Below are positions 6,924-45,923 of a DNA stretch of 49,109 bases, piece after piece (position 1 is the first letter of the stretch; every line of letters starts with the position of its first letter). Source of the stretch: Candidatus Daviesbacteria bacterium GW2011_GWA1_41_61 (GTDB lineage Bacteria; Patescibacteriota; Microgenomatia; Daviesbacterales; UBA10151). The DNA lies in NCBI GenBank assembly GCA_000997385.1, contig LCBT01000002.1:70315-119423 (forward strand), written 5' to 3'. The notes beneath the pieces are model-generated. The model did no database searches, was not told the origin of the DNA, and saw only the letters and a program-made list of their open reading frames with translations. The position numbers were made by a program, and so were the translations under genes.

Positions 6924-8381
6924 TTAAATGGCGAACTTATCGTTGATCAACTGAAGAAGATCAGTATTTCTGCCGTCATAGCCTAAAGCCCAAATACCCA
7001 GTCCTCTTAAATGTTTTTGGTTAATAAAATCATATTTTATTCCCAAGGAGCGGGAATTTTCAAAATGCACCATTCTGGTTTTACCAGTCTCCCGGTCAAT
7101 GTAGGAATACCAAGGAGTTTGGCTTTTTTCATCCCACTGAATTTTGGTGTTTTGAGTGGCTTCCATCAGTTGAGCGTAAGGGATAGCTTTTACATCCCCA
7201 CTGATAACTTTACCATTGGGGTCACTGGTCATCACCGGCCAATCGTAACCATAGTAACCCACGGCTAAAATCAGCTTTTCGGAAGCTACTTTTTCCAAAT
7301 AACTGCTCATAAAGCCCATCAGATTAATCCCGTATCCTTCCATCGGGGCAATTGGTCCGGCTTGAGGGGAAGAAGGAACTTTAAAGTCATAACCCATAAT
7401 CACTAAGGCATCAGAACTTTGGGCTAGCATCTCCACATCATGTAACCTGGTATTTGCAGCAGCATCAACAAATGTGCTGATGGTCAGCTTCGCTTTAGGA
7501 TATTGCCTTTTTAACTCCTTATTTAAGTTGGCCACCAGCAGTGAAAACCCATCAATAACTTTCTTGTCCGGGGTGCCAATATATTCAAAATCTAAATTAA
7601 TCCCGTCTAAAGATTTGGAGTTGACCAGATATAAAGCGTTGTTGATAAAGTTATAAGAAGCATCCGGAGATTGGACCAGTTGAGAGATATTATCAGCACT
7701 GAAGTTTTTTAATACCAGATGAACCCGTGTACGATTTTTCTTGGCTTTTTTGATAAAAGCCTCCAGTTTTTTATCATTATTCCAAATCGCCCAGGCGGAA
7801 AGAGCCTTTCCCTCTTGGTCAATTTTGACAATATTACCATTGCCGTCTACCTCCAGCCCGAAGTAAGCTACATCAGTTAAAAGCTTAATATTTAAATCAT
7901 CAGCTTTTTCCATCATCCAATACGGTAAAAAGCCAAAAACCTCTTTTTTCAACTGTCCGGTTAAAGTCAATTTTAAGCTGACGGGTTCAGCTTCAAAAAT
8001 CTTTTTAGGCTCTACCATAAATTGGCTGATAAAGAGGGGAGAACTGCTGTTTTCAGCCGCCAGTTTAGGTTGGGAAGCGGTATTTAAACCCTTAGTAGTA
8101 ACAACATAAGCGTTTTTACTGCCTCCGTCTTTTCTGCTAAGATATCCTGCCAAGTCAAACTTCCACACCACCACAGCAATAACTAAAAAGACCAACGCCC
8201 CCCACATCATAATACTCACTCCTAAATTAAACTCTAATAATCTTTCCACCAACTTTATCTCTTTTTCTTCCGGAGCCTGCATTTGGCTTAAAAGAATTGG
8301 GGGAGAAGGTTGGTTCAGTAAATTCTGGTCTTTAGGGAAAAATCTATTCCATAACTTACTAATAATTGGGATCTTGCGCAT
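6924..8381 (-). CDS. Membrane-anchored GH18-family glycosidase-like protein
   Basis: A 485-aa protein with a cytoplasmic N-terminus of about 50 residues, a single transmembrane helix at 53-73, a linker, and a glycoside hydrolase family 18 barrel at about residues 145-485. The barrel contains VFGFLPYWM, the active-site motif DGINLDFEY (259-267, catalytic Glu266) and ALVIMGYDF. This is the layout of YaaH/SleL-type GH18 enzymes, which act on peptidoglycan or N-acetylglucosamine polymers, but here LysM repeats are replaced by a membrane anchor. Likely role: cell-surface glycan cleavage outside the membrane. The catalytic Glu is kept, so activity is plausible; the substrate is inferred. Confidence 0.88.
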   Translation of the reverse strand: MRKIPIISKLWNRFFPKDQNLLNQPSPPILLSQMQAPEEKEIKLVERLLEFNLGVSIMMWGALVFLVIAVVVWKFDLAGYLSRKDGGSKNAYVVTTKGLNTASQPKLAAENSSSPLFISQFMVEPKKIFEAEPVSLKLTLTGQLKKEVFGFLPYWMMEKADDLNIKLLTDVAYFGLEVDGNGNIVKIDQEGKALSAWAIWNNDKKLEAFIKKAKKNRTRVHLVLKNFSADNISQLVQSPDASYNFINNALYLVNSKSLDGINLDFEYIGTPDKKVIDGFSLLVANLNKELKRQYPKAKLTISTFVDAAANTRLHDVEMLAQSSDALVIMGYDFKVPSSPQAGPIAPMEGYGINLMGFMSSYLEKVASEKLILAVGYYGYDWPVMTSDPNGKVISGDVKAIPYAQLMEATQNTKIQWDEKSQTPWYSYIDRETGKTRMVHFENSRSLGIKYDFINQKHLRGLGIWALGYDGRNTDLLQLINDKFAI

Positions 8382-13000: not shown

Positions 13001-14875
13001 TTACTTCAACTCTATCTGAAATATCTTATTATCCCCCAGAAGATAGATCTTTTTACTTTTTTCATCAACTACTAAATCATCAAAGGTGGCAAATTTGTCC
13101 CCTGAGTATTGGGTTCGGTAAGCTCCCTTTTTATCTACTACTATCAATCTACTGTTTCCTTTATCTAAAAAATAGATGTTCTCTGTCTGATCAGAAGCAA
13201 AAAAGCTGTGGACATCTTTTAAGGGCTTATCTAAATTAGAGAGGGAAAAATAGTCTAAAGATCCGGCCGTATACTTTAAAATTTCCTCCTCTCCCTTAAA
13301 CAGCCAAATAGAGCCATCGATATGCATCCTTTTAACCTCCGAAAAATCAGCCTTGACTCCTTCTTTTAAATAACTTCTTTTTTCCGTATAGCCTGTTTCT
13401 ACAGGTAAGTATTTAAGAATCTGCCCGCCAGATCTGTTTGCAGAGCCAGCCGGCGGCTTATCCAAAAGATAGATATTGCCGGCGAAGCCATAGATATCAA
13501 CAATCTCTCCCCATTCTAAATCAGGTTTGGCAGCCAGGGTAGTTTTCCCGCTGATAGTATCGATACTAACAATGCCCTTATCTGGAGAAAACACCACTGC
13601 CTGATCCCCATTTAAAGAGGCTAAAGCGGCTTGGCCCAATTTTTCCTCTCCGGCTAGAATTTGCGGAGCCTTAGTAGCCAAATCAACCTTCACTAAAATC
13701 TTTTTTTGGGGATCTAAAAACAGGATTTTTCCATGAGATAACGAGAGCCGATAGGAAGTGAAATCCTTTTTAATCAAGTTTAAATCCATCCAAACTGAAA
13801 AATCAGAGGGGCTAAAAACTTTTAAAATTAAAGGGGAATTTTCCTCAATTTGTTTTTTAAGCTCTAAAGCCTCCCGGTCAGCCGGTTTAATTTGTAAGGC
13901 TTGAGCCAACCAAATTTTAGCCTGATTTAAGCTTTGGGATGAGCTTGCCGAGTCTGAATCTTTTAAAGACCAGGCTTTTTGGTACTCCAAAGTCGCTTTA
14001 ACAAAGTTATCTTCAAAGGAGGCCTTAACCTGGGCATCTTGGCGGCGTTTGGAATCAGTCAAAACCCCACCCCAGACAATCAGCAGGACTACTCCTACTA
14101 AAAAGATTGCCCCCTTCAAAGAGCGGGGCCTTTTCAACAAAGCTTTCCTTATCAGCAACTTAATATTTTCCCCATAGGTTAATAAGCTGGCCAAACTAAG
14201 GCTGGAGGCAACAGACAAAGGAGAAGAGATCAATTTTTCCAAAGGCACAATCTCCTCAACTGTCTGCCCTTCCTTTTCCAGCACCACCGCTGCCAGCTGA
14301 TAAGTTTGAGCTTGGGAAAGCCTAGCTTCTCCCTCCTCTACTATCTCTTCTAGCGGTTTATCAACTAATTCTTTAAAGTTTTGACCCCAAAGCTCTTCAA
14401 AATTAGAAGTGCTAAAAATAATCCGGTCTCCGCTTTTAATAATTCCCGAGACTAAATGACAGGAAGGGGCAAGTTGGAGTAAATCAGTCACCTTATCTTC
14501 CCTAAAAAGATAAGCTTTAACGGAAGACCCGAGATAATAAAGATAAAGATTGTCGGCAGATAAACTCTCCTCACTTAAGCCAGCGATGATCTCTAAATCC
14601 TCCGCTTGTTTTAAAAAATTTTGGATAGCTTCAAAAGTAGTCTGCAATCTCTCCTTTAAGGGTTGAGAAGAGGAAAAGAAAACATCCTCAGCTTGATAAA
14701 TAGCCCGACGGCTTTGAGAAAAAGCATCATCTAAACTGGCAGAGATCAAAAGATACAAACGCCAACAGTTATCCTCCTCTCCTTCCCGACGTTGAGGAGA
14801 AGAGATGTAAGATAAAGCGGCATCGGTATCTGAATTTAACCCAATAACCTTAGCAACTTTTAGCATATCATCCAA
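13001..14875 (-). CDS. Degenerate PP2C-like domain joined to a beta-propeller through one membrane helix
   Basis: A 624-aa protein of CPR type. Residues 1-200 look like a PP2C phosphatase relic (NLYLYYLGSSVKAYLF for the 'GDSraYL' strand; IKSGDRIIFSTSNFEELW where active enzymes have a 'SDG' motif), so metal-binding Asp residues appear lost. One transmembrane helix (about 255-275) leads to a short coiled/TPR-like stretch and a C-terminal region (about 350-624) of repeated blades (KILFLDPQKKILVKVDL, NIYFLDKGNSRLIVVDKKG, KIYLLGDNKIFQIEL), probably a six-bladed propeller outside the cell. It may couple an outside ligand to an inside pseudo-enzyme. The start overlaps the upstream stop by 8 nt. Confidence 0.75.
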   Translation of the reverse strand: MDDMLKVAKVIGLNSDTDAALSYISSPQRREGEEDNCWRLYLLISASLDDAFSQSRRAIYQAEDVFFSSSQPLKERLQTTFEAIQNFLKQAEDLEIIAGLSEESLSADNLYLYYLGSSVKAYLFREDKVTDLLQLAPSCHLVSGIIKSGDRIIFSTSNFEELWGQNFKELVDKPLEEIVEEGEARLSQAQTYQLAAVVLEKEGQTVEEIVPLEKLISSPLSVASSLSLASLLTYGENIKLLIRKALLKRPRSLKGAIFLVGVVLLIVWGGVLTDSKRRQDAQVKASFEDNFVKATLEYQKAWSLKDSDSASSSQSLNQAKIWLAQALQIKPADREALELKKQIEENSPLILKVFSPSDFSVWMDLNLIKKDFTSYRLSLSHGKILFLDPQKKILVKVDLATKAPQILAGEEKLGQAALASLNGDQAVVFSPDKGIVSIDTISGKTTLAAKPDLEWGEIVDIYGFAGNIYLLDKPPAGSANRSGGQILKYLPVETGYTEKRSYLKEGVKADFSEVKRMHIDGSIWLFKGEEEILKYTAGSLDYFSLSNLDKPLKDVHSFFASDQTENIYFLDKGNSRLIVVDKKGAYRTQYSGDKFATFDDLVVDEKSKKIYLLGDNKIFQIELK

Positions 14876-15698: not shown

Positions 15699-17441
15699 TC
15701 ATTTTTTCTCGATATTGAAAAAGGCGAAACCGCTTTGGGGGATGGACAACCTTCCCGGAGCCCGGATATTAAAGGCGGTCTTAAAATCAGAGCCGGAAAG
15801 TTTTATCTCCCCTTTGTCGGTTTGAAAAATTAACTCATTAGTTGCCCCGTTCCCCTGCACCACTGTGACCGAAGTTACGGTGGAAGGACCGTTAGCTTTT
15901 TCCCTAAGCTCAGCATGAGAGTAAGGATTGCCTCCCCAACAGGAGGTGGTCACCGGTGTCACCCGATCATCCCGGTATTTAGCAGCGTTGATAATATCGG
16001 CCAACTCCTCGCCGGAAAGCCAAGGATTAGACCTACCGCAACTATCACCACCGGCTGTGTAACCTTGCCTGTACCAAGCTTTATAGACCCAGGGTGACCC
16101 GCCTGCTTTGTCATATGATTTGTCAACAAAATTTGACCCTCCGGAACCATCTGTGGTATCCCAACCAATCGGGGAAGCAAATCCTCCATGAGTCGAAGCA
16201 AAATACGCTTTAATGGATTGACCTCCTGAGATCATAACCTTTCCTGTAGTAGAGTTGACTGCGTTTTCCCAATTGCCGCCCTTTGGTTGAGTTTTAAAAA
16301 CTTGACAACCTTCCGTGGCGCAAATAGAACTAGCTCCGTTATTGGTAACTGCCAAAGCATAAGTACGAGCCGCTATTGCTTGAGCTTGTAATGTAGCTTC
16401 AGGCCAATTAGCTGGTACTTCATAAATTCTTTTTACATAATCTTCTAAGCTTCCTGTCCAGATAACACTTCCGCAATCCACACAATTTCCATTGTTAACT
16501 TTAATAGCAATACCACTCCTATCCTCATAGTTATCAAAACTATAATATGCTTTTAAAATCTGATCATATGTTTGACCCGCGTTAGCTCTGCCTCTGGCTC
16601 CATACTGACTCATTCCTTTTCTATGAGTGTGAGCTCCAAAAGAAAAGACTGCAAAAGAACCGGCCGGAGCTGCTTCCCGGAAGCCTTTAATGGAGGCATT
16701 ATAATCATCTGCCAGTTCGCTATCTCCAATAGAGGCGGTAAATTGACCGGACCTGGCTGCCAAAATAGCTTGTTGTTTGGCAGAAAGATCGGCAATCTTA
16801 GTGCTTAAATCAGCTTGATATTTTTTAGCTTTGCTGATCTCTCCATCTAAAAAGTCAGCGTTTTTATCCACTTCAACCTGCAAGGCAGCTAAAGAGATTT
16901 TATCTTTTTCTAACTTATCTTTTTGGGTGAGCAGATTCATCATTTCTTCTGTCACAAAGGAGATGACTCTTTGGTCTTCCCGAGTTGCAGCCTGGCGGTA
17001 AGCCAGTTCCCGGAAAACATCACCGGAACCGGACTGAGAGAGCAGCATCAAAAGTGGTGAGTCTAAATAGGAGTGGATATAGTAAGAACGAACCCGGGAA
17101 GAAAGCAGGGCTTGCTGCAGCACTAATTTATCTTCCCTGACTTTAAGGTCTTTTTCTTTTTGGGCGATGGTATAAGTTAAAGTTTGCAGCTTGACTTTAA
17201 TTTGTTGCAGTTGTCTTTCTAAAGAGTCCAGCTGGCCTTCCAAAGGCTTGGTAGCAGCCACAGACATCTCCCGGGCTTTATTTAAAACATCAATCTCTCT
17301 TTGCAGATCCTCTATCTCATCAGCAAAAGTAGTTGGTAGTAAGTAGTAAGTAGTAAGTAGTAAGGTAAAGAGAGTCAAAAGTATTTTGGCAAGTTTAGAA
17401 GGGGATAACCATTTAGGCAATAACCTTTTGGGGGAAAACAT
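15699..17441 (-). CDS. Exported coiled-coil protein with a SpoIID/LytB domain
   Basis: A 580-aa protein with a signal peptide (residues 1-40, cleaved near TTFA-DE), then coiled coils (about 41-115 and 160-225) resembling EnvC/CwlO-type hydrolase regulators. A SpoIID domain follows (about 245-520), with HRKGMSQYGARGRANAGQTYDQILKAYY and ATLQAQAIAARTYAL, the family hallmarks. SpoIID enzymes are lytic transglycosylases acting on denuded glycan strands. It likely remodels peptidoglycan at the surface, perhaps to open the wall for the nearby pilus-like apparatus (inference). The signal peptide is encoded by four tandem copies of a 7-nt unit (17337-17364), a possible frameshift switch. Confidence 0.9.
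   Translation of the reverse strand: MFSPKRLLPKWLSPSKLAKILLTLFTLLLTTYYLLPTTFADEIEDLQREIDVLNKAREMSVAATKPLEGQLDSLERQLQQIKVKLQTLTYTIAQKEKDLKVREDKLVLQQALLSSRVRSYYIHSYLDSPLLMLLSQSGSGDVFRELAYRQAATREDQRVISFVTEEMMNLLTQKDKLEKDKISLAALQVEVDKNADFLDGEISKAKKYQADLSTKIADLSAKQQAILAARSGQFTASIGDSELADDYNASIKGFREAAPAGSFAVFSFGAHTHRKGMSQYGARGRANAGQTYDQILKAYYSFDNYEDRSGIAIKVNNGNCVDCGSVIWTGSLEDYVKRIYEVPANWPEATLQAQAIAARTYALAVTNNGASSICATEGCQVFKTQPKGGNWENAVNSTTGKVMISGGQSIKAYFASTHGGFASPIGWDTTDGSGGSNFVDKSYDKAGGSPWVYKAWYRQGYTAGGDSCGRSNPWLSGEELADIINAAKYRDDRVTPVTTSCWGGNPYSHAELREKANGPSTVTSVTVVQGNGATNELIFQTDKGEIKLSGSDFKTAFNIRAPGRLSIPQSGFAFFNIEKK
17337..17364. repeat. Tandem heptanucleotide repeat, four perfect units, in a signal-peptide region
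   Basis: TAGTAAG is repeated four times without error; a related AGTAGTTGG precedes it. It lies in codons of the hydrophobic core (TLLLTTYYLLPTTF). As 7 is not a multiple of 3, gain or loss of one unit shifts the SpoIID reading frame. Confidence 0.9.
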
Positions 17442-18330: not shown

Positions 18331-18461
18331 ATCCCAATTTTCCAATCCCGGTTTGTCTTGGTTTTTGATTCCTGATTTTTTTAACTAAGTCCTAAGTCTA
18401 ACTCAGTACTCAACTCAACGCTTACTTGCAAAGAAACTTGACTTTCAGTAAGCTAAAAGTA

Positions 18462-20150
18462 ATGGTTAAGAAAGGATTTCTACTCCTATTTAGTCTATTG
18501 TCAATATTTGTAGTATTAGCAATTATTGCACAAAGCGCCGAAGCTGCCACAAATCAGTGTAACGGAAGTGGAATCTTAGTAGGGCCTGTGTACTTAAATA
18601 CCATAAATGTTTCAGATCCGGATTACTACAGTTTAGGAGGTTTTAAGATTGCGGTTCGGGTAGAACAAATAACTCCTACTGCTGGGGTTGAGCCTGGGTA
18701 TTTTTTTGCAAATAGTACTGATAGCTGTGGAACTGGTTGTATACGAGCACCAGCATTTTGTGTAAGCATCATAAACAGCCAGGGAAAAAGCTTAGCTGAT
18801 TCCACAAACAGAGTAAGAGTTGTCCTCCCCTCAGAAACACTCATAGACGGGACCTATTTCAAGGGCTTATTAAGGACTAATACTACCGACCCAGGCGGAA
18901 CTATCACTCTCCGAGAATCATCTGAATATATAAAAACTGTTGAAGCAGACCTTAATAAGCCCAGCACTGAGTTAGGGGAGATTCACTACTCTTGGAACCC
19001 ACCCTCAAATCTAATAAGTAACCCAACTTTAACAGCTAATCCTACTGTAGTATTAGTAAATGAACCTAAAGATGTTTATCTTACTATGAATTTAGGTTCA
19101 CGGCTTACTAATAGATACGATTTTGTCATACAAAATCCTAGTGCTAGCTTTAAAGGTGTAGGACAGATTGTCTGCCAAGCACCCCAGAACAGATTAAATC
19201 CTCAATGTGTAATTCGAACTGACAGAAGTCCTCCGGAATGGTTTAAAAATATCTCAATAAACACCACCACTGACGCACTAACCGGACAATCTTCGACGGT
19301 TGCTATCTTAGTTATACAAAACGCCAACACCCTGCCAGAAGAAACCTACCGACCAGAACTAACTCCAGTTGGATTACCGCAAGTTTCAACCTCTTTTGAA
19401 GTGACCTCCAAAGTAAGCACTTTGAATGATGTAAAGCCAGTGCTGGTGCCCTCGACTCTTGATACTAAGGCGACATCTAACGCAAAGATTGAAATTCATT
19501 TAGAAAATGGGACGAGTGACTTTTATTATGCTTACCCAAAACCTGAATTTAAGTGGCAAATACAACTGAGTCCACCAGAATACAGCGCCTTTAGATATAT
19601 AACACTCCCAAATACTGTTGATACAAAAAACAGCGCAACCTTTCAATTGACTCCTCAAGGGTTATTACCCAACCCCTCCGATTCTCAAGGTTATAAAATA
19701 GAGGTTAAAGACACTAGTGGAAACCTTAGAGGAGTAGCCTATCTAAAGGTAACAGGCACTAGGGATTCACCTCCACCTAGAAACACAGGTGGTGATCCTG
19801 TAAAGTGTAAAACCGGGGATCCAAAATGTACCTCAGCTGCTGGGATACCATGCACTAACGGAATTTTAACTGCTATTGGCTGTGTGCCGACAGATCCTGC
19901 TGAACTTGTTAAAGGATTGATGAAGCTTTTTGCCGGAGCCGGAGGGGCGATAGCCTTACTGCTGATGGCTTTTGGGGCCATTCAGATGATCACCTCTCAA
20001 GGCAGCCCGGAGGGGATTAAAGCCGGACAAGAAAGGTTTACTTCTGCTGCTTTAGGACTGCTGTTTATTATCTTCTCTGTCTTGTTGTTGGAGATTATCG
20101 GCGTTAATATATTAGGACTAGATCAATTTGGAATAGGGTTTAATCGATGA
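18462..20150 (+). CDS. Large exported surface protein with a C-terminal pilin-like helix pair
   Basis: I prefer ATG 18462 (MVKKGFLLLFSLLS) over the upstream TTG at 18426, as it gives a normal signal peptide ending near SAEA. The 562-aa product has a long extracellular beta-rich part (several Cys, Pro/Thr-rich linkers, about residues 30-470). It ends with two membrane helices around MITSQGSPEGIKAGQERFTSAALG, the same helix-loop-helix signature as the small VirB2/TrbC-like proteins that follow. It overlaps the next gene by 4 nt. It may be a pilin-anchored tip or adhesin subunit; this is inference from layout. Confidence 0.75.
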   Translation: MVKKGFLLLFSLLSIFVVLAIIAQSAEAATNQCNGSGILVGPVYLNTINVSDPDYYSLGGFKIAVRVEQITPTAGVEPGYFFANSTDSCGTGCIRAPAFCVSIINSQGKSLADSTNRVRVVLPSETLIDGTYFKGLLRTNTTDPGGTITLRESSEYIKTVEADLNKPSTELGEIHYSWNPPSNLISNPTLTANPTVVLVNEPKDVYLTMNLGSRLTNRYDFVIQNPSASFKGVGQIVCQAPQNRLNPQCVIRTDRSPPEWFKNISINTTTDALTGQSSTVAILVIQNANTLPEETYRPELTPVGLPQVSTSFEVTSKVSTLNDVKPVLVPSTLDTKATSNAKIEIHLENGTSDFYYAYPKPEFKWQIQLSPPEYSAFRYITLPNTVDTKNSATFQLTPQGLLPNPSDSQGYKIEVKDTSGNLRGVAYLKVTGTRDSPPPRNTGGDPVKCKTGDPKCTSAAGIPCTNGILTAIGCVPTDPAELVKGLMKLFAGAGGAIALLLMAFGAIQMITSQGSPEGIKAGQERFTSAALGLLFIIFSVLLLEIIGVNILGLDQFGIGFNR

Positions 20151-22080: not shown

Positions 22081-23532
22081 ATGAGCATACTGCCTGCCCT
22101 TTGGAAAAAAAATCAGCCCTTAAGCATCCTATTTCTGTGTCTTGTGGTAGCAATGCTGCTTTTTTTTAATCCTTCCACTAAAGCTTATGTCGATCCCGGG
22201 ACAGGCTCTGAACCGTCCCCTACCCCCATCCCTTGCCAATCAACATACACCCGTTATTGTGACGGTAACTCGGTTTGGGAAAAAGACAGCTGTAATGGAG
22301 CTTATAAAATACAAGACTGTGATGTGGGGAATGATCAAAGATGTACCCAAGGCCCGGGGTTTACCAATGGCCGCTGTGTCAAATATTATCACACTGCAAT
22401 GTCCATCAACCCCAATCCTCCCGAGCTGGGGAATAATGATGTTAAAGTCATTATCCAAGGGACTAAATCCTGTAATGCCTCCGGCTTTACCTTCTACCCT
22501 GATTTAGGACTGGGGACCCTCAGTGATTTTAAAAACACCTTATGCCAGGCCCAAGACATTAAGCCTTTAGGCTGCTCGGGGACAGGAGATCAGGCTTGTA
22601 CCTGGTCGGGAACTTGTGTAGCCCGGATGATGAAAACTTCCATTACTGATCCCAACTTTTATAACAGCTATTTTCAAGCTACTTTTAATTCTAATGCCAG
22701 CTTGGCTGGAGACAGGATTGGTGACTGCAGCTCTAGCACCCAATATTATGTTGATCCCTTGCCTTGTGATCAGGTACGCACTCCTATTTTTGACACCATT
22801 GTCTCCAAACTATTTCCTTCTGCCAGTAATAGTGGTCAGATAGTTTCCGCTACCATGGAAGATGACCGCCGGGAGGTAAAATTTTTAAGCCAAGTTGAAC
22901 TCCCCAAAGAAGCTACTTTTACTCCCACTCCTAAAGTACCTACACCTCCCCCTGCCGACCCCTTATCACTCTTCCATCAAACAGGTTTACAAACGGGCTT
23001 TTTTGGTTATATTCAAAGGCTGTTTTGCAGCAATCCCTTATTAAAACTAACTGGATTTTTTATCTGCCCCGCTGATGTTAATTTAGCTGTCTCTTTAGGG
23101 ACAGAGCAACCGGCCGCTGAGGAATCAAAAAACTTGGTGACTTTATCCCAAGTTTTAAGAAACAGCAAGGTAGCCCCGGAAATTGTCCCTTCTCCGGCCC
23201 CTAAAGGGTGCTATATCCAAGACATTTTAGTTTTAGGGGAGATGACAGAGGGGGATAAAGATTTAGACAAAATCAGCGGCAGCTTGTCCGGCTCAGATTA
23301 TACCGGTTATTATCTGGAGAACATCCCCAAACTGGAAGGGATCAAGATTGCTACCAAATCTGACGGTTTAAGCTACAATGGAACAGAAGTGCCGGGAGAA
23401 GAGCGTTCCCGCTATTTAAACTGCGGACAAGAGGTCCAAAATCAGGCTCTTTTCCCTCCTATACCCGATCTTCATCCAGGACTGGACTTAACTGTCCAAA
23501 AAAACAGATGCCTGCCCACCCTAACCCCCTAG
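22081..23532 (+). CDS. Secreted Cys-rich protein of the pilus-like locus
   Basis: A 483-aa protein with a signal peptide or anchor (residues 1-36, with CLVVAMLLFF), then a Cys-rich N-terminal region (CQSTYTRYCDGNSVWEKDSC, CDVGNDQRC) and a long soluble part with Pro/Thr linkers. I recognise no catalytic domain. Many Cys pairs suggest disulfides outside the cell. Its place between the pilin-like genes and the VirB6-like gene makes it a candidate structural or adhesive component. Confidence 0.7.
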   Translation: MSILPALWKKNQPLSILFLCLVVAMLLFFNPSTKAYVDPGTGSEPSPTPIPCQSTYTRYCDGNSVWEKDSCNGAYKIQDCDVGNDQRCTQGPGFTNGRCVKYYHTAMSINPNPPELGNNDVKVIIQGTKSCNASGFTFYPDLGLGTLSDFKNTLCQAQDIKPLGCSGTGDQACTWSGTCVARMMKTSITDPNFYNSYFQATFNSNASLAGDRIGDCSSSTQYYVDPLPCDQVRTPIFDTIVSKLFPSASNSGQIVSATMEDDRREVKFLSQVELPKEATFTPTPKVPTPPPADPLSLFHQTGLQTGFFGYIQRLFCSNPLLKLTGFFICPADVNLAVSLGTEQPAAEESKNLVTLSQVLRNSKVAPEIVPSPAPKGCYIQDILVLGEMTEGDKDLDKISGSLSGSDYTGYYLENIPKLEGIKIATKSDGLSYNGTEVPGEERSRYLNCGQEVQNQALFPPIPDLHPGLDLTVQKNRCLPTLTP

Positions 23533-23567: not shown

Positions 23568-25103
23568 ATGTCTGCCCTAAAGCTAATTCTTAGTTGTTTA
23601 ATCTTTACTCTCACGCTCTTTCTATCCACTACTCCAACCCAAGCAGCTTTTACTGATGCCAACGCTGCCACTTGGAGACCGGAACAGCAGTCAGCTTACA
23701 CTACCGATAATTTAGTTTTTGGCTTTCTTTGCCAAATGGTCCGTATTCAAGGCTGCCCGGTCAAGATAGTTGATGAAGCTGGTAAAGTCAAAATCGCTCT
23801 TTATGATGGTCCCCCTGGAGGTGGGGCTCTAGCTGAGATTAGTGGTTTAACTGTTGCCTTATATAACCCCCCAATTTCTTCTGTGGAATATCTAGCTAAT
23901 CTAGGTGAAAGTATTGGTCTTTCTCCAAAACCAGCCTACGCCCAAGTAACAGGTTCCGGAGAAGGAATTATTAAACCAGTCTTTAAACTATGGGAGGCAG
24001 CTAGAAACTTAGCTCTTTTAGCCTTTATTATAGTCTTTTTGGTGGTAGGGATTATGATTATGTTCAGGCAAAAAATCAGCCCTCAGGCTGTTATCGGAGT
24101 CCAACAAGCTCTTCCTAGTTTAATAATTGGCTTAATTTTAGTAACTTTCAGTTATTTTATCACAGCATTACTAGTAGATGTTTCCTTTGTCGGTATTAGA
24201 GTTATCTCGGAACTTTTCATAAAGGCCGGGCCTAATGTCTTTAATGAAAATAATATTCGAGCTATAGCCCAAGATTCAAATATCCTCAATCTTTTTAGCT
24301 CGGCAGCAGGGATTACTTTGGAAAATATTGATGATGTTGGCCAATCTTTAACTAATACAACCCGCGATATTTGGGGCGGACTTCCTATCCTTATTCCCAT
24401 AGTAATTGGAACTCTTGTAGGGCTTTTGGCGGGACCATGGGGGGCAGCTTTTGGCTTTCTGGGGGGGCTTACTACAGGCTTAGTGGCACCCGATGCAGTA
24501 CCTAATCTTATCAGTCTTTTGATTTCTCTCATTTTAGTAGTTGCTTTGTTTATTCAAATGTTTAGGCTCTTTTTTGGGCTTCTAGGGGCCTATATCTCTA
24601 TTCTGGTAAGCACTATTGCCGGTCCGTTTTATATACTTTTTGGCTCTATCCCCGGAAGAGGAGGATCAATTAGCAGTTGGATTAAATCTATTGTGGCGAA
24701 TGCTTTAATCTTTCCCGCGGTTTTTGCCATGTTTTTATTCGCCGGAGCCATCCTTGGTAACACAAGCCCTGCTGATTGGAAGGTCTCTCCCCCGCTTTTC
24801 GGAGGTTTAACAGCTGAACTTTTAAGATTCCTTATTGCTTACGGCATACTGTTGAGTACCCCCGCCATTCCGGATATGGTCAGGAATGCTTTAGGTGTTA
24901 AAGGCCCGCAAGGAATTGGCCAAGCAGCTCTGGGTGGATTTATGGGTGGATTTGGAGTAGCCCAGGCAGGTTACAACAGGTGGACTGATCCATATAGACA
25001 AGTACAAAAAGCATGGGAGGAAAATCGAACAAAAGCTCGTGCCGGACTACCGGCAGCGCCTGTAACCCCACGACGACCTTATCGAGGCTTCCCCTGGTTT
25101 TAA
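23568..25103 (+). CDS. VirB6/TrbL-like polytopic membrane protein
   Basis: A 511-aa protein with a signal peptide (cut near TQA-AF) and an N-terminal outside domain of about 110 residues. At least six hydrophobic helices follow, including ALLAFIIVFLVVGIMIMFR and FIQMFRLFFGLLGAYISILV, then a basic cytoplasmic tail (QVQKAWEENRTKARAG). The topology and the position after the pilin-like genes match the VirB6/TrbL channel component of type IV secretion systems. Sequence similarity to named VirB6 proteins cannot be judged by eye. Confidence 0.72.
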   Translation: MSALKLILSCLIFTLTLFLSTTPTQAAFTDANAATWRPEQQSAYTTDNLVFGFLCQMVRIQGCPVKIVDEAGKVKIALYDGPPGGGALAEISGLTVALYNPPISSVEYLANLGESIGLSPKPAYAQVTGSGEGIIKPVFKLWEAARNLALLAFIIVFLVVGIMIMFRQKISPQAVIGVQQALPSLIIGLILVTFSYFITALLVDVSFVGIRVISELFIKAGPNVFNENNIRAIAQDSNILNLFSSAAGITLENIDDVGQSLTNTTRDIWGGLPILIPIVIGTLVGLLAGPWGAAFGFLGGLTTGLVAPDAVPNLISLLISLILVVALFIQMFRLFFGLLGAYISILVSTIAGPFYILFGSIPGRGGSISSWIKSIVANALIFPAVFAMFLFAGAILGNTSPADWKVSPPLFGGLTAELLRFLIAYGILLSTPAIPDMVRNALGVKGPQGIGQAALGGFMGGFGVAQAGYNRWTDPYRQVQKAWEENRTKARAGLPAAPVTPRRPYRGFPWF

Positions 25104-30487: not shown

Positions 30488-31319
30488 CTCTCAGCAGTTT
30501 ATCCCCCTGGAAGAGATTAGAGATGATTTAGTTTTTTTAAAAAACGGCAGCGTTAGTTTAATCATCTCCACTTCAGCTGTTAATTTCAGCCTGCTTTTTG
30601 AAACTGAGCAGATCTCCATTATCCAATCTTTTGCCGGACTTTTAAATTCTCTCTCCTTTCCCATCCAAATTATTATCCGCTCTAAAAGGCTGGATATAAC
30701 TTCTTATATTGAAAGGTTAAAGATGGCAGCTCAAACCCAAACGAATCCCCTGCTGGCCCAAATGACCCAGCATTATTTTAACTTTGTGACCAGCATTATT
30801 AAAGAAAACAACGTTTTAGATAAACAGTTTTATGTTTGTTTAAATGTGAGTTCGATTGAGCTGGGAGTCTTTCACAAAGGAGGTGATGATTTAAGCAAAA
30901 AAGTTTTAACTATTTTAATCCCCAGGAGGGATCATTTACTGCGCCAATTATCTCAGCTAGGACTTAAAGCCCGGCAGCTGAAAAGTGAAGAATTAATTAA
31001 ATTATTTTATGATATCTACAACCCCTCCAATACTGAAGGTGCTGATACTCCCTACGAAACTCCATTAACTCCCAAAGCTCCCCCTCAACTAGCCGCCATC
31101 TCCCCCCAACCAGCAAATCCAACCGCCCCCTCAAGCAGCGGGCCGGTCCCCTCTACTCCAAGGCCGCCAACTATCCCCTTCCTCCCTTCCCCTAACAACC
31201 GTCCTCCCATGCCGCCTCTTAACCGAAGCCAACCCCAAGCCTCCTCCATCTCTGCCCCAGTTATCCGTTTAACTCCGCCTTTTGTTGTGGAAGAGTTAGC
31301 CGATGACAGCGGACCCTAA
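30480..31319 (+). CDS. TraC/VirB4 N-terminal-domain-like protein with a Pro-rich tail
   Basis: A 279-aa protein. Residues 1-180 (FIPLEEIRDDLVFLKNGSVSLIISTSAVNF, PIQIIIRSKRLDITSYIERL) resemble the N-terminal domain that VirB4/TraC ATPases use to contact membrane partners. The last 90 residues are Pro/Ser-rich and probably flexible. The ATPase part is encoded by the next gene, which overlaps by 17 nt, so this looks like a VirB4 split into two proteins or a separate adaptor. It has no Walker motif. Confidence 0.8.
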   Translation: MASSQQFIPLEEIRDDLVFLKNGSVSLIISTSAVNFSLLFETEQISIIQSFAGLLNSLSFPIQIIIRSKRLDITSYIERLKMAAQTQTNPLLAQMTQHYFNFVTSIIKENNVLDKQFYVCLNVSSIELGVFHKGGDDLSKKVLTILIPRRDHLLRQLSQLGLKARQLKSEELIKLFYDIYNPSNTEGADTPYETPLTPKAPPQLAAISPQPANPTAPSSSGPVPSTPRPPTIPFLPSPNNRPPMPPLNRSQPQASSISAPVIRLTPPFVVEELADDSGP

Positions 31320-33054
31320 TCAAACCATCCGGTTTAATTTGTCAGATATTTTAGCTCCATATCAGATGGAGATTGATTTTTCGCACCTGCGGTTAGACAG
31401 CAACCTTTTCCGTAGCTTTTTTGTCTCCGGTTACCCCAGGTATGTTGAGCCTGACTGGATGGAACCGTTAATTGATTTTGACAGCTCTTTAAGTATGGCG
31501 ATGTTTATTTATCCCACCAAATCAACCGGTATTTTAGACAACCTCAAAAGAAAGATCGCCGAAATGGAAGCCACCATCGAAACTGATTTAGAGAGGGGAA
31601 GGGTCATTGACCCATCCGTCCAGGTAGCTTTAGATGATGCTCGGGAGCTTCAGGAACAGTTGGCCAAAGGAGCGGAAAGGTTTTTTCAGTACAGTTTATA
31701 TATCACCGTCCCGGCCAAAAATAAAGAAAGCCTGAGTAACACCTCCCAGCTGGTAGAATCAACCTTAGGCAGTATCTCCATTACCGCCAGGCCTACCACC
31801 TTACAAATGTATGAAGGTTTTGTTTCCACCATGCCTTTAGGCCAAGACCCCCTCTATTTAAACCATAATATGGATACCACATCTTTGGCCACCACTTTTC
31901 CTTTTGTTTCCTCCGAGCTGACTGCTTCCGAAGGGATTATTTATGGCATTAATGAGCACAACGATTCTTTAATCATCTTTGACCGATTTAGCCAGGAAAA
32001 CGCTAACTGTGTAGTTTTTGCCACCTCCGGCGCCGGAAAATCATACTTTGTTAAACTAGAAGCCTTGCGTTCCTTAATGTTTGGGACCGAGGTGATTATC
32101 ATTGACCCAGAAAGGGAATATCTTAGCTTAGCCCAAGCGGTGGGAGGGGATTATATTAACTTTTCCACCACCTCTCCGGTCAAGATCAACCCTTTTGACC
32201 TGCCAGAGGTAGCTGATAGAGGGGAGGATGAGCTGGGGAGAAAAATTCTTTCTTTGACCGGATTTTTAAAGCTGGTCTTGGGAGAGCTAAACCCCACTGA
32301 GGCAGCAGTTTTAGACCGGGCCATTAACGCCACTTACCGCCTGAAAGGTATTACCACCTCCACTCCTAAAGAACAGTTAGGAAAAATCCAACCTCCTTTA
32401 ATGGAAGACCTCTACAAAGCGATGATTGGCATGGAAGATCCTATTGCTAACTCTTTGGCTGTCAGGTTGGAGCGGTTTATCAAAGGGTCGCTGGCGGGGA
32501 TCTTTTCCACCCAATCTAATATCCAGATTCAAAACCAACTAACGGTTTTTTCAGTGAGGGATTTGCCCGATCAACTGCGCCCTTTGGCCATGTATTTAAT
32601 CTTAGATTATATCTGGACGAAGATTAGGCACAGCTTAAAAAAAAGGCTGCTGATAGTTGATGAGGCCTGGTACATGATGAGATACCCTGATTCGGCAGCC
32701 TTTTTAATTGAGATGGTCAAACGGGCGAGAAAATATTACCTGGGGGTTACCACCATCAACCAGGATGTAGAGGATTTTTTAGGTAAGGACCAAGGCAAGA
32801 TGATTATCTCCAACTCTTCGATGCAGGTTCTTTTAAAACAGGCTCCTGCCTCAATTGAAAAATTGGGTCAAACCTTCAACCTTTCTCAAGGAGAAAAAAG
32901 GCTGCTGCTCACTGCCGGGGTAGGCAGGGGATTATTTTTTGCCGGCAACAACCATGTGGCTATTCGAATTGTCGCCTCTGAGGAAGAACATAAGTTAATT
33001 ACAACTAATCCTAAAGAGATCATAGAAAAGCAGCAGGAGTCACCAGCACAGTAA
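31303..33054 (+). CDS. virB4: VirB4-type secretion ATPase
   Basis: A 583-aa ATPase of the VirB4/TraC/ConE family, the motor found in all type IV secretion systems. Walker A is ATSGAGKS (240-247), then IIIDPEREYLSLA and GGDYINFS as in the family; Walker B is RLLIVDEAW near residue 450, with TINQDVEDFL after it. It is somewhat short because the N-terminal domain is largely in the preceding gene. It powers assembly or transport at the inner face of the membrane. Its coupling partners VirD4 and VirB11 are not encoded in this window. Confidence 0.95.
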   Translation: MTADPNQTIRFNLSDILAPYQMEIDFSHLRLDSNLFRSFFVSGYPRYVEPDWMEPLIDFDSSLSMAMFIYPTKSTGILDNLKRKIAEMEATIETDLERGRVIDPSVQVALDDARELQEQLAKGAERFFQYSLYITVPAKNKESLSNTSQLVESTLGSISITARPTTLQMYEGFVSTMPLGQDPLYLNHNMDTTSLATTFPFVSSELTASEGIIYGINEHNDSLIIFDRFSQENANCVVFATSGAGKSYFVKLEALRSLMFGTEVIIIDPEREYLSLAQAVGGDYINFSTTSPVKINPFDLPEVADRGEDELGRKILSLTGFLKLVLGELNPTEAAVLDRAINATYRLKGITTSTPKEQLGKIQPPLMEDLYKAMIGMEDPIANSLAVRLERFIKGSLAGIFSTQSNIQIQNQLTVFSVRDLPDQLRPLAMYLILDYIWTKIRHSLKKRLLIVDEAWYMMRYPDSAAFLIEMVKRARKYYLGVTTINQDVEDFLGKDQGKMIISNSSMQVLLKQAPASIEKLGQTFNLSQGEKRLLLTAGVGRGLFFAGNNHVAIRIVASEEEHKLITTNPKEIIEKQQESPAQ

Positions 33055-41057: not shown

Positions 41058-42332
41058 GTGAAGACATTATTTGTGAAACAAAAAAGCTCTGCTTTATTTC
41101 AAGTTTCCCAGCAGACCTTCTGGCAGCTTTTAGGCAAAGCTATTACTTCCCTAGCCACTTTCATAATATTAGGCATGGTTACCAGAGCTTACGGTGAAGC
41201 TCAAACCGGAGTTTTCACCTTAGCTTTAACTTATTTAGCTTTTTTTTATTTAATCTCTGATTTTGGGATTAATGCCCATATTGTCCCCCATCTGCTGCAC
41301 GGTCCTATCTCTGCCCAGTGGCGAAGACTGTTAGGTTTAAGAATAACTCTATCGTTGATCTTATTTACCATAGCCGCCACTGGAGTTTTAATTTGGCCGG
41401 TGGATAACCTCTTCCGCCAAGCAGTGCTGTGGGGCAGTTTAGCTATTTTTGGCTCCTCTGTCTATACTACGGCAGCAGCGATCTTCCAAAGTAAACTCCG
41501 TTATGACTTATCTACCCTGGCAGTTTTAGTAGGTACCTTAGTGCCTTTACCCTTGTTTTATCTTTTTATAGCCAGCCACCAAGGCATTCCCTATTTAATG
41601 CTGGTCCACCTGTTGGGTTGGTTGCTTTTAGGAGCCACTGCCTTAATCTCAGTTAAAAGATATATCAGCAGCCTGCTGCCTGTTTTTGATTTCAGCTATA
41701 TAAAAAAAATTATCCTTGAAGTTTGGCCGATTACCGCCACTTTAATTTTAAACACCATCTATTTCCGTTTAGACGCCTTTATCCTGAGCTCATTAAAGAG
41801 TTTTTCTGAAGTCGGGGTGTATAATCTTTCTTTCTCCATCTTTCAATCCTTACTCGTAGTTCCCACTTTTATCATGAACGGTTATTACCCGGTAATGATA
41901 AAAAATTTTTCCCAAGACAAGCAAAAGTTTGTGGCTAACTTAAAAAAAGCGGCTGTTTTAATGTTGGCTGTTGCTGCTTTGGGGACAGTTTTTACCTTGC
42001 TGCTTTCTCCTTTAGTTGTTAATGTGCTTACTGGCGGTCAAGGTTTTATGGGGGCAGAAATCTCTTTACAAATTCTTTCCTTGTCCTTCCCGGCTTTTTT
42101 TGTCTCTTCCATTTTAATGTGGACTTTGGTGACTATAAAAAAATATAAAACCATGATGATTATTTATTTTTTAGGTTTAATATTTAACCTTGTTTTAAAT
42201 CTGGTCTTTATTCCAAAATATTCATTCTATGCTGCCTCAGCAGTAACAGTAATGGGTGAGTATCTGATTGTCTTACTGCAAGTAGTGGTATTGATCCGGG
42301 TACTGGCAAAGCAGAGGACTTCATTTTTTTAG
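41058..42332 (+). CDS. Oligosaccharide flippase (MOP superfamily, Wzx/MurJ-like)
   Basis: A 424-aa polytopic membrane protein with about 12 hydrophobic segments. It opens with the family pattern FWQLLGKAITSLATFIILGMVTRAYGEAQTGVFTLALTYLAFFYLISDFGI. It belongs to the polysaccharide-exporter branch (Wzx-like), which flips lipid-linked sugars to the outer face of the membrane. The GTG start 41058 opens the frame; no clear Shine-Dalgarno site is visible. The DUF4012 fusion downstream may act on the same surface polymers. Confidence 0.87.
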   Translation: MKTLFVKQKSSALFQVSQQTFWQLLGKAITSLATFIILGMVTRAYGEAQTGVFTLALTYLAFFYLISDFGINAHIVPHLLHGPISAQWRRLLGLRITLSLILFTIAATGVLIWPVDNLFRQAVLWGSLAIFGSSVYTTAAAIFQSKLRYDLSTLAVLVGTLVPLPLFYLFIASHQGIPYLMLVHLLGWLLLGATALISVKRYISSLLPVFDFSYIKKIILEVWPITATLILNTIYFRLDAFILSSLKSFSEVGVYNLSFSIFQSLLVVPTFIMNGYYPVMIKNFSQDKQKFVANLKKAAVLMLAVAALGTVFTLLLSPLVVNVLTGGQGFMGAEISLQILSLSFPAFFVSSILMWTLVTIKKYKTMMIIYFLGLIFNLVLNLVFIPKYSFYAASAVTVMGEYLIVLLQVVVLIRVLAKQRTSFF

Positions 42333-42354: not shown

Positions 42355-42768
42355 GTGAAAAAATTTGTTATTTTTACCGATGGAGCCTCTCGGGGTAACC
42401 CCGGCCAGGCCGCTTCAGGTTATATTATTAAAACAAATGAGGGAGTAGTGTGGGTAGAGGAGGCGGTTCGTTTAGGGGTAGCTACTAATAACGAAGCAGA
42501 ATACACTGCTGTCAAACTGGCTTTACAAAGATTAGCGCATGACTTTTCTTCAGACCTTCCTTCAGTTGTGGAGATTAAAACTGATTCCCAATTAGTTGCC
42601 AGGCAGCTGGCGGGAATTTACAAGATTAAAAATCCTAAATTAAAAGTGTTGTTTGAGGAAATCAAAAAACTTCAAGGAGACATCGGGAAAATTGTTTATA
42701 CCCATATACCGCGCCAGGAAAATTATTTAACCGATCGGTTAGTCAACCAAGCCTTGGATACTCAATAA
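42355..42768 (+). CDS. Ribonuclease HI family protein
   Basis: A 137-aa RNase H fold: FTDGASRGNPGQAASGYII (first Asp), NNEAEYTAVKLALQ (Glu), IKTDSQLVARQL (Asp) and HIPRQENYLTDRLVNQALD (last Asp). All four catalytic acids are present. It removes RNA from RNA-DNA hybrids, such as primers. The GTG start has no strong ribosome-binding site. It lacks the N-terminal hybrid-binding domain. Confidence 0.93.
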   Translation: MKKFVIFTDGASRGNPGQAASGYIIKTNEGVVWVEEAVRLGVATNNEAEYTAVKLALQRLAHDFSSDLPSVVEIKTDSQLVARQLAGIYKIKNPKLKVLFEEIKKLQGDIGKIVYTHIPRQENYLTDRLVNQALDTQ

Positions 42769-42840: not shown

Positions 42841-45072
42841 ATGATGATGCTTTCGCGAAACAAACCTGTCACATACCTCGTGGGAGTTGCCGGTTTTTTA
42901 GGATCACATCTGGCTGAAAAATTACTGGCCAAAAATATCCAGGTAATTGGTGTGGATAACTTATCTACCGGCAGGAAAGAATATTTAGAACATTCCTCCA
43001 AGGACAAAAACTTCCATTTTTTAAACCAATCAGCTTCTTTCGAGTTGACCTTTGATTTTCCGAGACTGGATTATGCTTTTTTTATTATTTCTGAAAATCT
43101 AGATGAAGAGGAATATAAAAAAAGTCTAGAAAATTTTATTAATTTAGCAAAAAAGTTTAAGCCCAAAGTTGTTTATGTTTCTTCCCTTGGCCTTTATGAT
43201 TCTCACGATGAGAAATACCCAAATCTTAAGGAAGCCGAAAAAAAGTTAGCCCAGCTTTCCTTGGAGCATCAGCTCAACACTCGGATTATCCGTTTGGCAG
43301 CAGTTTATGGTCCGAGGATGCATTTTAGGGAGGAAGATCCGATCTGCCGTTTAATTTATGCCGCTTCCTGCGGGGAGATCCAAAAAGAGAACACGACTTT
43401 AGACTTTACCACCCGGGGTCTTTATATCGATGATGCGGTCGACCTGCTAATTAAAGCGGTGATGCATGGGGCGACGGCCCAAAAACTATATGATGGAGCT
43501 TTGCTTTACCCTCTAAAAGTGATGGAGATAAAGCAGCTTTTACTTGATCCGTTGTGGTATGAAAGCCGGGGTTTTGTTCCTACCCAGCTGCCTCCCTGGC
43601 CGACCCCTAATATTTTAAAAACCCAAAAAGAGCTGTCCTGGGCTAGTCAGGCAAGTTTAACAGCTGCTTTAAAACAAACCCTTCATTTTTTTCAACAGTT
43701 TCCCCATTATTTACCTAAATCCAAATTACCTGAAGCTGAAAAAGTTGAACATCCTAAAGAAATTTCTGAGGATAAACTGCCCTTACCGGAGGAGAAAAAA
43801 CAACAGATTAAGGAACTGTTTGGGGATGGTCCTGAAAATAATAAACCGGAGGTAAGGAAAGGGGGGGGAGTAAGGTGGCAAAAGATCCGGGGGTATTTAG
43901 GCCTGATTTGTCTTTTGGGGTTGCTGTTTTATGCTACAGTTTATCCTTTAACCTTGGTGGTCTTAAGTGGCTTAAATGTTAAAGATAGGCTTTCCCAAAG
44001 CTACCAAGACTCAAAGGCAGGGGATTACCAGCAGGCTAAAAGAGAAACTTATCAGGCACAACTGGCAGTGGGGGAGTTAAAGAGTAATTTGTCAGCCTTG
44101 AAGTTGTTCCGGGCTGTAGGATTATTTACCACCACCATTCAAGCTACCAGCCAGCTGACAGAAATTTTAGAAAAAACCATTGACGGAGTCCAGGCACAGT
44201 CAGTGGGTCAAGCTGCTTTAGTGGAATCTTTAAAGGTAATCTCCGGTGGTAAGGAGGGGGATTTAAATAAGCTTTACCTGGAAGCTGAGGCTAGTTTTAA
44301 TCAGGCAGAGGAAAGTTTGGGTTTAGTCCAGGGAAGGTTATCTGATCCAGTCTTTATAAGCTCAACAATTGAAGTTTGGCCCTTCTTTAAAGATATTCTG
44401 CAAGCAAACCTGATGGGTTTGGGAAAGAGAATGGCAGAAACGGGACAATCCTTACAAAGAGAGAAGTTGTTGTCGCAGGTTTTACCGGGGCTAATTCCGC
44501 CTTCCGGAAAGAGGAGCTATTTGATTTTACTGGCTGACAGCTCCATATCTAGGCCCCGCGGGGGAGTGATCAACTCTTATGGAGAGATAATTTTTGAAGA
44601 TGGCAGGCTGCAAAAGATTAATATTGAGGATATCGCTAAAATTGAAGAAGACTCAGATAAGTTGGCAGAACCTCCCAAAGAGGCAAAAGAGTTGATTATG
44701 GCATCTTTAAAAGATTCTAACTTTGAGGCGGATTTTCCTACTGCCGCCAGGAATGCTGCCTGGGGATACCAGCGTCAATCAGGACAGCCAGTTTCCGGGG
44801 TGATATTGATAGATGAAAAGGGTCTGGCAGGAGTTTCCCCGATCTTAGGGGAGGGCTTAAAAGAGGTTTTAAATAACTTATTCTTTTCTCCTCAGTTAAA
44901 CTACAGCAATTTGGGCAGCCTGTTAAACCAGATGCTGGAGGAAAAACATTTAGTCGTTTACGTATCTGATCCTGTCATTTATGGTTATTTAGATGCCCAG
45001 GGTTTTACTGGTAGTTTGCCTAGACAATCTAAAGAGAAGGTAGGGGAGAGGCAGGATTTTAGCTCTTTTTGA
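42841..45072 (+). CDS. SDR epimerase fused to a membrane-anchored DUF4012 domain
   Basis: A 743-aa fusion. Residues about 10-290 form an extended short-chain dehydrogenase: G15-VAG18-FLG21 NAD motif, D39 for the ribose, SSLGLYD, and catalytic Y126-x3-K130. A charged linker (about 300-345) leads to one membrane helix (about 354-378). The outside part (about 385-743) matches DUF4012: LLADSSISRPRGGVINSYGEIIFEDGRL, DFPTAARNAAWGYQRQSG, SGVILIDEKGLAGVSPIL. DUF4012 proteins are LytR-neighbourhood envelope proteins of unknown activity; the usual Asn before the GG motif ('N-sElRptGG') is Asp/Ser here. The fusion ties nucleotide-sugar chemistry to the surface domain. Confidence 0.85.
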   Translation: MMMLSRNKPVTYLVGVAGFLGSHLAEKLLAKNIQVIGVDNLSTGRKEYLEHSSKDKNFHFLNQSASFELTFDFPRLDYAFFIISENLDEEEYKKSLENFINLAKKFKPKVVYVSSLGLYDSHDEKYPNLKEAEKKLAQLSLEHQLNTRIIRLAAVYGPRMHFREEDPICRLIYAASCGEIQKENTTLDFTTRGLYIDDAVDLLIKAVMHGATAQKLYDGALLYPLKVMEIKQLLLDPLWYESRGFVPTQLPPWPTPNILKTQKELSWASQASLTAALKQTLHFFQQFPHYLPKSKLPEAEKVEHPKEISEDKLPLPEEKKQQIKELFGDGPENNKPEVRKGGGVRWQKIRGYLGLICLLGLLFYATVYPLTLVVLSGLNVKDRLSQSYQDSKAGDYQQAKRETYQAQLAVGELKSNLSALKLFRAVGLFTTTIQATSQLTEILEKTIDGVQAQSVGQAALVESLKVISGGKEGDLNKLYLEAEASFNQAEESLGLVQGRLSDPVFISSTIEVWPFFKDILQANLMGLGKRMAETGQSLQREKLLSQVLPGLIPPSGKRSYLILLADSSISRPRGGVINSYGEIIFEDGRLQKINIEDIAKIEEDSDKLAEPPKEAKELIMASLKDSNFEADFPTAARNAAWGYQRQSGQPVSGVILIDEKGLAGVSPILGEGLKEVLNNLFFSPQLNYSNLGSLLNQMLEEKHLVVYVSDPVIYGYLDAQGFTGSLPRQSKEKVGERQDFSSF

Positions 45073-45165
45073 GACTGAGGCAAACAGACAAAGATTAAAT
45101 TACCCCGCTCATAATGGGGGAGCCAAACACAAACTGGAACCTCAGATAAAAACCTGATTTTAGAG
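45073..45165 (+). other. Structured gap before rplY
   Basis: The outer arms CTGAGG and CCTCAG, with an inner hairpin CCCCGCTCATAATGGGGG, could fold as a small RNA structure or act as a terminator for the upstream gene. I recognise no family and see no T-run. Confidence 0.3.
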
Positions 45166-45203: not shown

Positions 45204-45923
45204 ATGGACAGATTGTCTTTAAAGGCCCAGGAAAGAGAAATTTTAGGAAAACAGGTTAAAAAACTACGCCGGGATGGTTTTATCCCCGCTCATGTTTTTG
45301 GCAAAAAGATCCCCACGGAGCATCTTTCAGTCAAAGCTCATGATTTTTCCCGGATTTTCTCTCAGGCGGGAGAGACCGGCTTGATTGATTTAAAAATAGG
45401 CGACAGTAAGATTAGGCCGGTGTTGGTTCGTGATATTCAAGTTGATCCAGTGCGGGGAGCCATCCTACATATTGATTTTTATCAGGTTAATTTAACAGAA
45501 AAAGTCAAAGTTTCTGTGCCAATTAGGATAGTAGGGGAGGAGCCTGAGGCGGTTCAAATGGGGGAGGCGGTAGTTATTCAACCGCTAGGTGAGGTCGAGG
45601 TTGAGGCATTACCCACCGAGCTTCCTGACCATTTAGAAGTTGATATCAGTAGTTTACAACAAATTAATGATGCGATCTCAGTTTCCCAGATGTTAGTCCC
45701 TGTTGGTGTGGAGGTAATGACTGACCTAGAAGCAGTGGTGGTAAAACTGGATACGGCAGTCTCTGAGGAAGCTCAACAGCTGATGGAAGAACAAGCTGCA
45801 GAGTCTGCGGCAGCGGCAGAGGCAGCTGCCCCAGAGGAAGCACCAGTTGAAGGTGAAGCTGAGGAAGCAGAAGGAGAAGCTACTGAAGGCGAGGGAAAAC
45901 CCACTCCTCCTGATGCTGCTTAA
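45204..45923 (+). CDS. rplY: 50S ribosomal protein L25 (CTC form)
   Basis: A 239-aa protein that binds 5S rRNA. N-terminal L25 domain: RLSLKAQEREILGKQVKKLRRDGFIPAHVFGK, then ILHIDFYQVNLTEKV. The C-terminal TL5/CTC domain has VVIQPLGEVEVEALPTELPDHLEVDISSL. A low-complexity Glu/Ala tail of about 45 residues follows. Family length without the tail is normal. It is convergent with valS, with only 23 nt between stops. Confidence 0.95.
   Translation: MDRLSLKAQEREILGKQVKKLRRDGFIPAHVFGKKIPTEHLSVKAHDFSRIFSQAGETGLIDLKIGDSKIRPVLVRDIQVDPVRGAILHIDFYQVNLTEKVKVSVPIRIVGEEPEAVQMGEAVVIQPLGEVEVEALPTELPDHLEVDISSLQQINDAISVSQMLVPVGVEVMTDLEAVVVKLDTAVSEEAQQLMEEQAAESAAAAEAAAPEEAPVEGEAEEAEGEATEGEGKPTPPDAA

Follow-up and report, generated by a model that had tools for sequence, protein, structure and literature searches.

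A conserved fusion of a pseudoenzyme-like SDR domain to DUF4012 in a putative surface-polysaccharide locus of Daviesbacteria

Does a cytosolic sugar-modifying enzyme operate in Daviesbacteria while tethered to a domain outside the membrane, and what would such an arrangement say about the outer domain? The question is raised by one gene in the stretch of 49,109 nt analysed here (the window), which the initial annotation had read as a complete nucleotide-sugar epimerase joined across one membrane helix to DUF4012.

One reading frame across two domains

The fusion is encoded by a single uninterrupted ORF (42841-45072, + strand, 743 codons). Pfam recognises both domains within it, namely Epimerase (PF01370) at residues 13-211 with an E value of 5e-11 and DUF4012 (PF13196) at residues 556-665 with an E value of 5e-14, the latter a partial match to profile positions 2-115 of 144 that scores 53.6 bits against the curated Pfam cut-off of 28. 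Hydropathy reveals a sole hydrophobic segment (residues ~356-374), and the description of an SDR joined across one membrane helix to DUF4012 is thus borne out. Positive residues lie N-terminal of the helix, so that the SDR is predicted inside and DUF4012 outside; the cytosolic and outer placement originally proposed holds up in the form of this predicted topology. The parts of the gene are these:

42841..45072, + strand: SDR-DUF4012 fusion gene, 743 aa (single frame; Pfam Epimerase and DUF4012; orthologues in same-family genomes)
42853..42861, + strand: N-terminal S-R-N signature, residues 5-7, directly preceding beta strand 1, with both R6 and N7 invariant across the family (alignment columns)
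42871..43716, + strand: predicted cytosolic pseudo-SDR domain, ~residues 11-292, UDP-xylose-synthase-like, with the NAD-binding GxxGxxG (Pfam, AlphaFold, structural matches, alignments)
43213..43230, + strand: active-site remnant K125-Y126-P-N-L129-K130 (alignment and register count)
43717..43875, + strand: linker, charged and variable, residues 293-345 (alignment)
43906..43962, + strand: single transmembrane helix, residues ~356-374 (hydropathy)
43963..44490, + strand: helical-bundle segment of the DUF4012 part, ~residues 375-550 (alignment to the AlphaFold model of orthologue L039)
44497..45024, + strand: predicted LCP-like alpha/beta core including PF13196 at 556-665 (Pfam; core alignment; DUF4012 conservation; Foldseek LCP matches of the orthologue)
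45056..45157, + strand: frame-shifted remnant of the beta-domain that the C-terminus has lost, ILALFETEANRQRLNY...GAKHKLEPQIKT, ending in the stop at 45157 (frame comparison)

The SDR-helix-DUF4012 fusion is a genuine, conserved architecture. Orthologous fusions occur in 22/22 genomes of the same family, each of a different genus, and in 43 named records, with the position of the locus syntenic nearly throughout. A chimeric assembly in which an SDR gene and a DUF4012 gene collapsed at the junction (43740-43900), the concern raised initially, is refuted by the recurrence of the fusion at the same locus across these many assemblies and, no evidence supporting it having been found, can be set aside. 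The survey of CPR DUF4012 proteins suggested together with the initial annotation recovered the fusion family-wide in Daviesbacteria and, in related but longer form, in ~10 other Patescibacteria families. Within a phylum sample of 380 genomes, a fusion-length ORF (>=700 aa) was present in at least 34 among the SDR matches listed, with DUF4012 in the same frame for at least 20 of those 34. The literature searched held no earlier description of an SDR-DUF4012 fusion. DUF4012 itself is widespread in Patescibacteria (142/192 sampled genomes). Long DUF4012 proteins (~790-980 aa, with the DUF starting at ~340-520) were screened as additional fusion candidates, and most were rejected, their N-termini being polar and low-complexity-looking, not SDR.

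When placed in a tree with stand-alone SDRs of the same phylum, the SDR domains of the fusions form one clade (SH-aLRT 99.8), and because they do, the fusion appears to have arisen once, in an ancestor.

The SDR domain and its catalytic site

The AlphaFold model of the window SDR shows a confident SDR fold (pLDDT 92.6). Its best structural matches are human UDP-xylose synthase (4lk3/4gll), and phmmer agrees with the structure search, UDP-xylose synthase/UDP-glucuronate decarboxylase (UXS) being closest in sequence as well as in fold. The three glycines of GxxGxxG are present in the window (G15, G18, G21) and kept in most Daviesbacteria; the Asp after strand 2 (Asp39) is kept in the window and most relatives and is invariant in the Daviesbacteria alignments. 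With UDP-glucuronate decarboxylase/UXS1 (4gll, 4lk3, 2b69), an extended SDR, the fusion SDR has the fold, the GxxGxxG site and a GPRM segment in common, but it differs in lacking the catalytic Tyr, the catalytic Lys and much of the active-site stretch, and in being joined to a membrane helix and DUF4012.

PMC10338323 names YxxxK and GxxGxxG as hallmarks of active NDP-sugar SDRs, and completeness had been claimed for the window SDR from Y126-x3-K130. The string does exist (YPNLK, residues 126-130), but it is shifted by one residue from the catalytic register: with positions counted back from Glu133, which is invariant, K125 takes the Tyr position and L129 the Lys position, and in an alignment with 16 stand-alone SDRs, all possessing YxxxK, the window has L129 in the Lys column and a gap in the Tyr column, hence no catalytic YxxxK in register. 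The catalytic Ser/Thr is represented by S115 at the aligned position, which in the family is mostly S/T without being invariant. Among the 43 Daviesbacteria sequences (window included), the catalytic Tyr and Lys pair is found in 0/43; the Lys position is occupied by L (31), F (7), I (4) or Y (1), and a Y...K string nearby is seen in the window only. The active-site stretch S114-E133 comprises 17-22 residues in Daviesbacteria; stand-alone SDRs from this phylum have 33-38, so that the stretch is shorter by ~11-21 residues. Outside Daviesbacteria, 19/19 alignable fusions keep the catalytic Lys, with the Tyr position filled by Tyr (5), Leu (7), Phe (5) or His (2); YxxxK is retained in the five fusions of two families only (f32 and f92), where catalysis may survive. 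On the tree of fusion SDRs, intact versus lost catalytic sites require two changes, so that the order of the losses, or a regain, is left undecided by the tree.

The idea of a membrane-tethered enzyme, active as an epimerase or decarboxylase of nucleotide sugars and supplying sugars to the export machinery, draws on the intact SDR fold and GxxGxxG, on the S/T...YxxxK of those five fusions and on a gene neighbourhood of sugar export; given the absence of Tyr and Lys from the window and all Daviesbacteria, the contracted active-site stretch and a Y126-x3-K130 string that is both out of register and unique to the window sequence, we regard it as highly improbable. An active epimerase deduced from the YxxxK string was rejected by register and by family conservation alike, and the claim of a working cytosolic sugar-modifying enzyme falls with the loss of both residues throughout Daviesbacteria and of the Tyr in 14/19 other fusions. 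The result corrects a motif-based annotation as active epimerase. Because the catalytic residues are absent, decarboxylase activity of the window SDR would not be expected either. For comparison, PMC7984243 describes a UDP-GlcA epimerase with Tyr replaced by Phe as ~1,200-fold slower, with NAD+ still bound.

The domain is nonetheless strongly conserved. Mean identity between the window and its orthologues is 48% for the SDR, 36% for the DUF4012 core and 20% for the helical part; among the other orthologues, the SDR (51%) and the DUF4012 core (50%) hardly differ in conservation. With Tyr and Lys lost family-wide, yet the domain conserved and the NAD-site glycines kept, the SDR looks, from its sequence, like a conserved pseudoenzyme. 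Most likely its capacity to bind NAD(H), and perhaps a nucleotide sugar too, has survived, and it probably senses or organises and does not make sugars. At one syntenic gene, the SDR grades across families from an intact YxxxK site into a pseudoenzyme, and in this natural series the role of non-catalytic nucleotide-sugar domains in the control of surface polymers can be addressed.

Precedents exist for parts of this arrangement. NmrA and HSCARG are non-catalytic, NAD(P)-sensing SDR proteins that regulate transcription or signalling; like the pseudo-SDR, they retain a Rossmann domain for dinucleotide binding without catalysis, but no envelope domain is fused to them. Proteins of the CapD/FlaA1 type likewise anchor a cytosolic SDR to the membrane in pathways for surface polysaccharides, but they span the membrane with several helices, their SDR is active and they lack an outer domain. 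A literature search on SDR pseudoenzyme sensors yielded nothing apt. Alternatively, the SDR could serve as structural adapter only, for example as a surface for dimerisation or for a membrane partner, with no ligand involved. In several other families (L028-L031, L130-L135), the syntenic gene encodes an N-terminal domain that is degenerate or unrecognisable as SDR, as suits an adapter. Daviesbacteria and most alignable fusions, however, retain the dinucleotide glycines and the Asp that follows strand 2, and a bare scaffold needs less than that; we consider the adapter unlikely.

Gene neighbourhood and the DUF4012 part

The fusion lies in a conserved gene order, to which the following neighbours in the window belong:

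41058..42332, + strand: Wzx/MATE-type polysaccharide flippase, upstream of the fusion (Pfam PF01943, 1e-12; syntenic in most relatives)
42355..42768, + strand: syntenic RNase H gene that separates the flippase from the fusion (Pfam; synteny)
45204..45923, + strand: gene for ribosomal protein L25, which bounds the conserved locus downstream (Pfam; synteny)

In nearly all Daviesbacteria the order is rnpA, yidC, jag, (Wzy_C), flippase, RNase H, fusion, L25; dnaA and a valS-like gene lie beyond the conserved locus. Most of 20 regions drawn from other families in the phylum show this order too, in varied form. In several other families, as in nearly all Daviesbacteria, the flippase stands beside the fusion with RNase H between them. 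Located between jag and the fusion in relatives are genes of the Wzy_C O-antigen-ligase type (1e-13, 4e-11) and Wzz-like chain-length genes (2e-5, 6e-4, under the Pfam cut-off). Elsewhere in the same genome there are four Wzy_C genes and an SDR-free DUF4012 paralogue (C1:92326-94087) that adjoins the genome's only PF02397 priming glycosyltransferase. A DUF4012 gene beside a priming glycosyltransferase is likewise found in the EPS cluster of B. longum 105-A, for which PMC5412050 gives the order priming-GT, DUF4012, wzz. Two smaller features of the locus were noted. Several Daviesbacteria (L044, L046, L047, L051, L067, others) have a ~280-aa gene inserted between the fusion and L25, which in L044 is hydrophobic and EamA-type transporter-like by eye. 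In other Patescibacteria families the polysaccharide locus contains a small membrane methyltransferase-like gene (L191:4898-5479, L186:6286-6888, L193:10567-11166), the L191 copy with a weak PEMT/ICMT match.

For the DUF4012 part, structure was predicted on the 572 aa that follow the membrane helix in the orthologue L039; the model (pLDDT 89.1) shows a long bundle of helices, a core of alpha/beta type and a beta-rich C-terminal domain. Foldseek matched it to 3nxh (E 3e-4, TM by target 0.51), 3pe5 (E 1e-3) and 2xxp (E 6e-3), which we take to be LCP proteins (3nxh as YvhJ/TagV, 2xxp as Cps2A). These matches have a probability of 1.00 at moderate TM (0.33-0.51 by target), and M1-peptidase matches rank above them; because of their ~200-column length and the beta-rich domain, the latter probably concern the C-terminal part of the model. 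Modelling of both halves, as recommended at the outset, has in this way given an SDR fold for the N-terminus of the window protein and a predicted LCP-like core for the DUF4012 part of its orthologue. At the level of profiles, PF03816 (LCP) has no Pfam match on the window fusion at E up to 1; a DUF4012-LCP profile-profile comparison gave a probability of 0.6-14%, not significant, with the similarity falling in the same kind of motif, and homology from this comparison alone was rejected; an hmmsearch of the PDB with the DUF4012 profile returned no LCP chain, and weak talin-like or other helical matches to the helical part only. The LCP-like fold of the core is thus a supported prediction and not a family membership.

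According to PMC7831098, LCP enzymes act on lipid-linked glycopolymers and have conserved catalytic residues (R267, R362, R374, D234 and D246 in Cps2A). The LCP transferases (TagV, 3nxh; Cps2A, 2xxp) resemble the fusion in that one membrane helix is followed by an outer alpha/beta domain, with core similarity predicted; the fusion differs by the missing PF03816 match and by its accessory domains. This genome also has a separate gene for a true LCP protein. Other DUF4012 proteins, which make up fam000574 of Meheust et al. 2019 (PMC6744442, in excerpts) and include the gene in the B. longum 105-A EPS cluster (PMC5412050, in excerpts), have the DUF4012 core and the association with polysaccharide genes in common with the fusion, but many are without the SDR. 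The excerpts of these two papers mention neither an SDR fusion nor the fold, and the literature found assigns DUF4012 an auxiliary envelope role at most. The initial annotation had expected from the fusion a functional clue for DUF4012, and the locus does give one through its Wzx/Wzy/Wzz neighbours and the LCP-like predicted fold, though not by way of an active epimerase. Polysaccharide locus and predicted core together lead to the testable idea of DUF4012 as an outer glycopolymer-handling domain.

State of the window copy and proposed role of the fusion

Full-length orthologues measure ~890-1040 aa, compared to the 743 aa of the window copy, whose frame breaks near 45050 and which, unlike the DUF4012 family, is without the C-terminal beta-domain; the stop of the remnant (45157) precedes the L25 start at 45204. 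In addition, ~40 residues of the DUF4012 core are missing and the family signature QNN.ELRPTGGFIG is degenerate (ADSSISRPRGGVIN). Signature and C-terminal beta-domain are features common in DUF4012 members, with no formal Pfam criterion attached, and the window copy shows neither in intact form. The orthologues retain the C-terminal domain and most also the signature; several close relatives combine a degenerate signature with a C-terminal domain that is kept. Because the signature is degenerate and the C-terminal domain absent, the window copy may not work as the family does. It might even be a decaying gene en route to a pseudogene, with odd features that say little on function: the C-terminal domain was removed by frameshift and deletion with a remnant still recognisable, the core is shortened with its signature eroded, and one other Daviesbacteria orthologue ends early too (L055:5938-8124, JACPEX010000001.1, 729 aa, slightly further into the same region). 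Against decay stand 743 uninterrupted codons, an SDR nearly as conserved as among the other orthologues (48% compared to 51%) and a catalytic loss that is family-wide and not special to this copy, and we would give the proposal little credence.

The reading towards which we lean, with some reserve, places the fusion, as a membrane component, in a locus that assembles surface polysaccharides; its outer core would be LCP-like and its cytosolic SDR a pseudoenzyme binding NAD or a nucleotide sugar. This reading builds on the observed fusion, its conservation and synteny and the loss of catalytic residues, and on the LCP-like fold as predicted; from these we infer ligand binding, sensing and coupling. 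Anchored in the membrane, the protein would present an outer DUF4012 that probably handles the lipid-linked glycopolymer from the neighbouring Wzx/Wzy/Wzz-type machinery, be it by attachment or by its organisation. The cytosolic domain would descend from a UDP-glucuronate-decarboxylase-like SDR that was fused a single time, in an ancestor, and that afterwards lost its catalytic Tyr and Lys in the Daviesbacteria lineage. Having most likely kept NAD(H) binding, perhaps with a nucleotide sugar, the pseudo-SDR could act as a sensor or docking scaffold that links outer polymer handling to inner precursor supply. A bolder form of this proposal, possible if doubtful, is a sensor-transferase: the dead UDP-xylose-synthase-like domain would read the cytosolic NAD(H) or nucleotide-sugar state and control an outer LCP-like glycopolymer transferase, thereby coupling precursor supply to polymer attachment at the surface of Patescibacteria, and DUF4012 would represent an unrecognised branch of the LCP fold.

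Elsewhere in the window, four long ORFs (483-624 aa) have no Pfam match at 1e-5 (13001-14875, - strand; 18426-20150, 22081-23532 and 23568-25103, all + strand). The window further encodes a SpoIID-domain protein (15699-17441, - strand, E 8e-15), a possible cell-wall enzyme in a lineage for which we know of no sporulation, a glycosyl hydrolase family 18 protein (6924-8381, - strand, E 2e-35) and a TraG/VirB4-like P-loop ATPase (31303-33054, + strand, E 1e-22).
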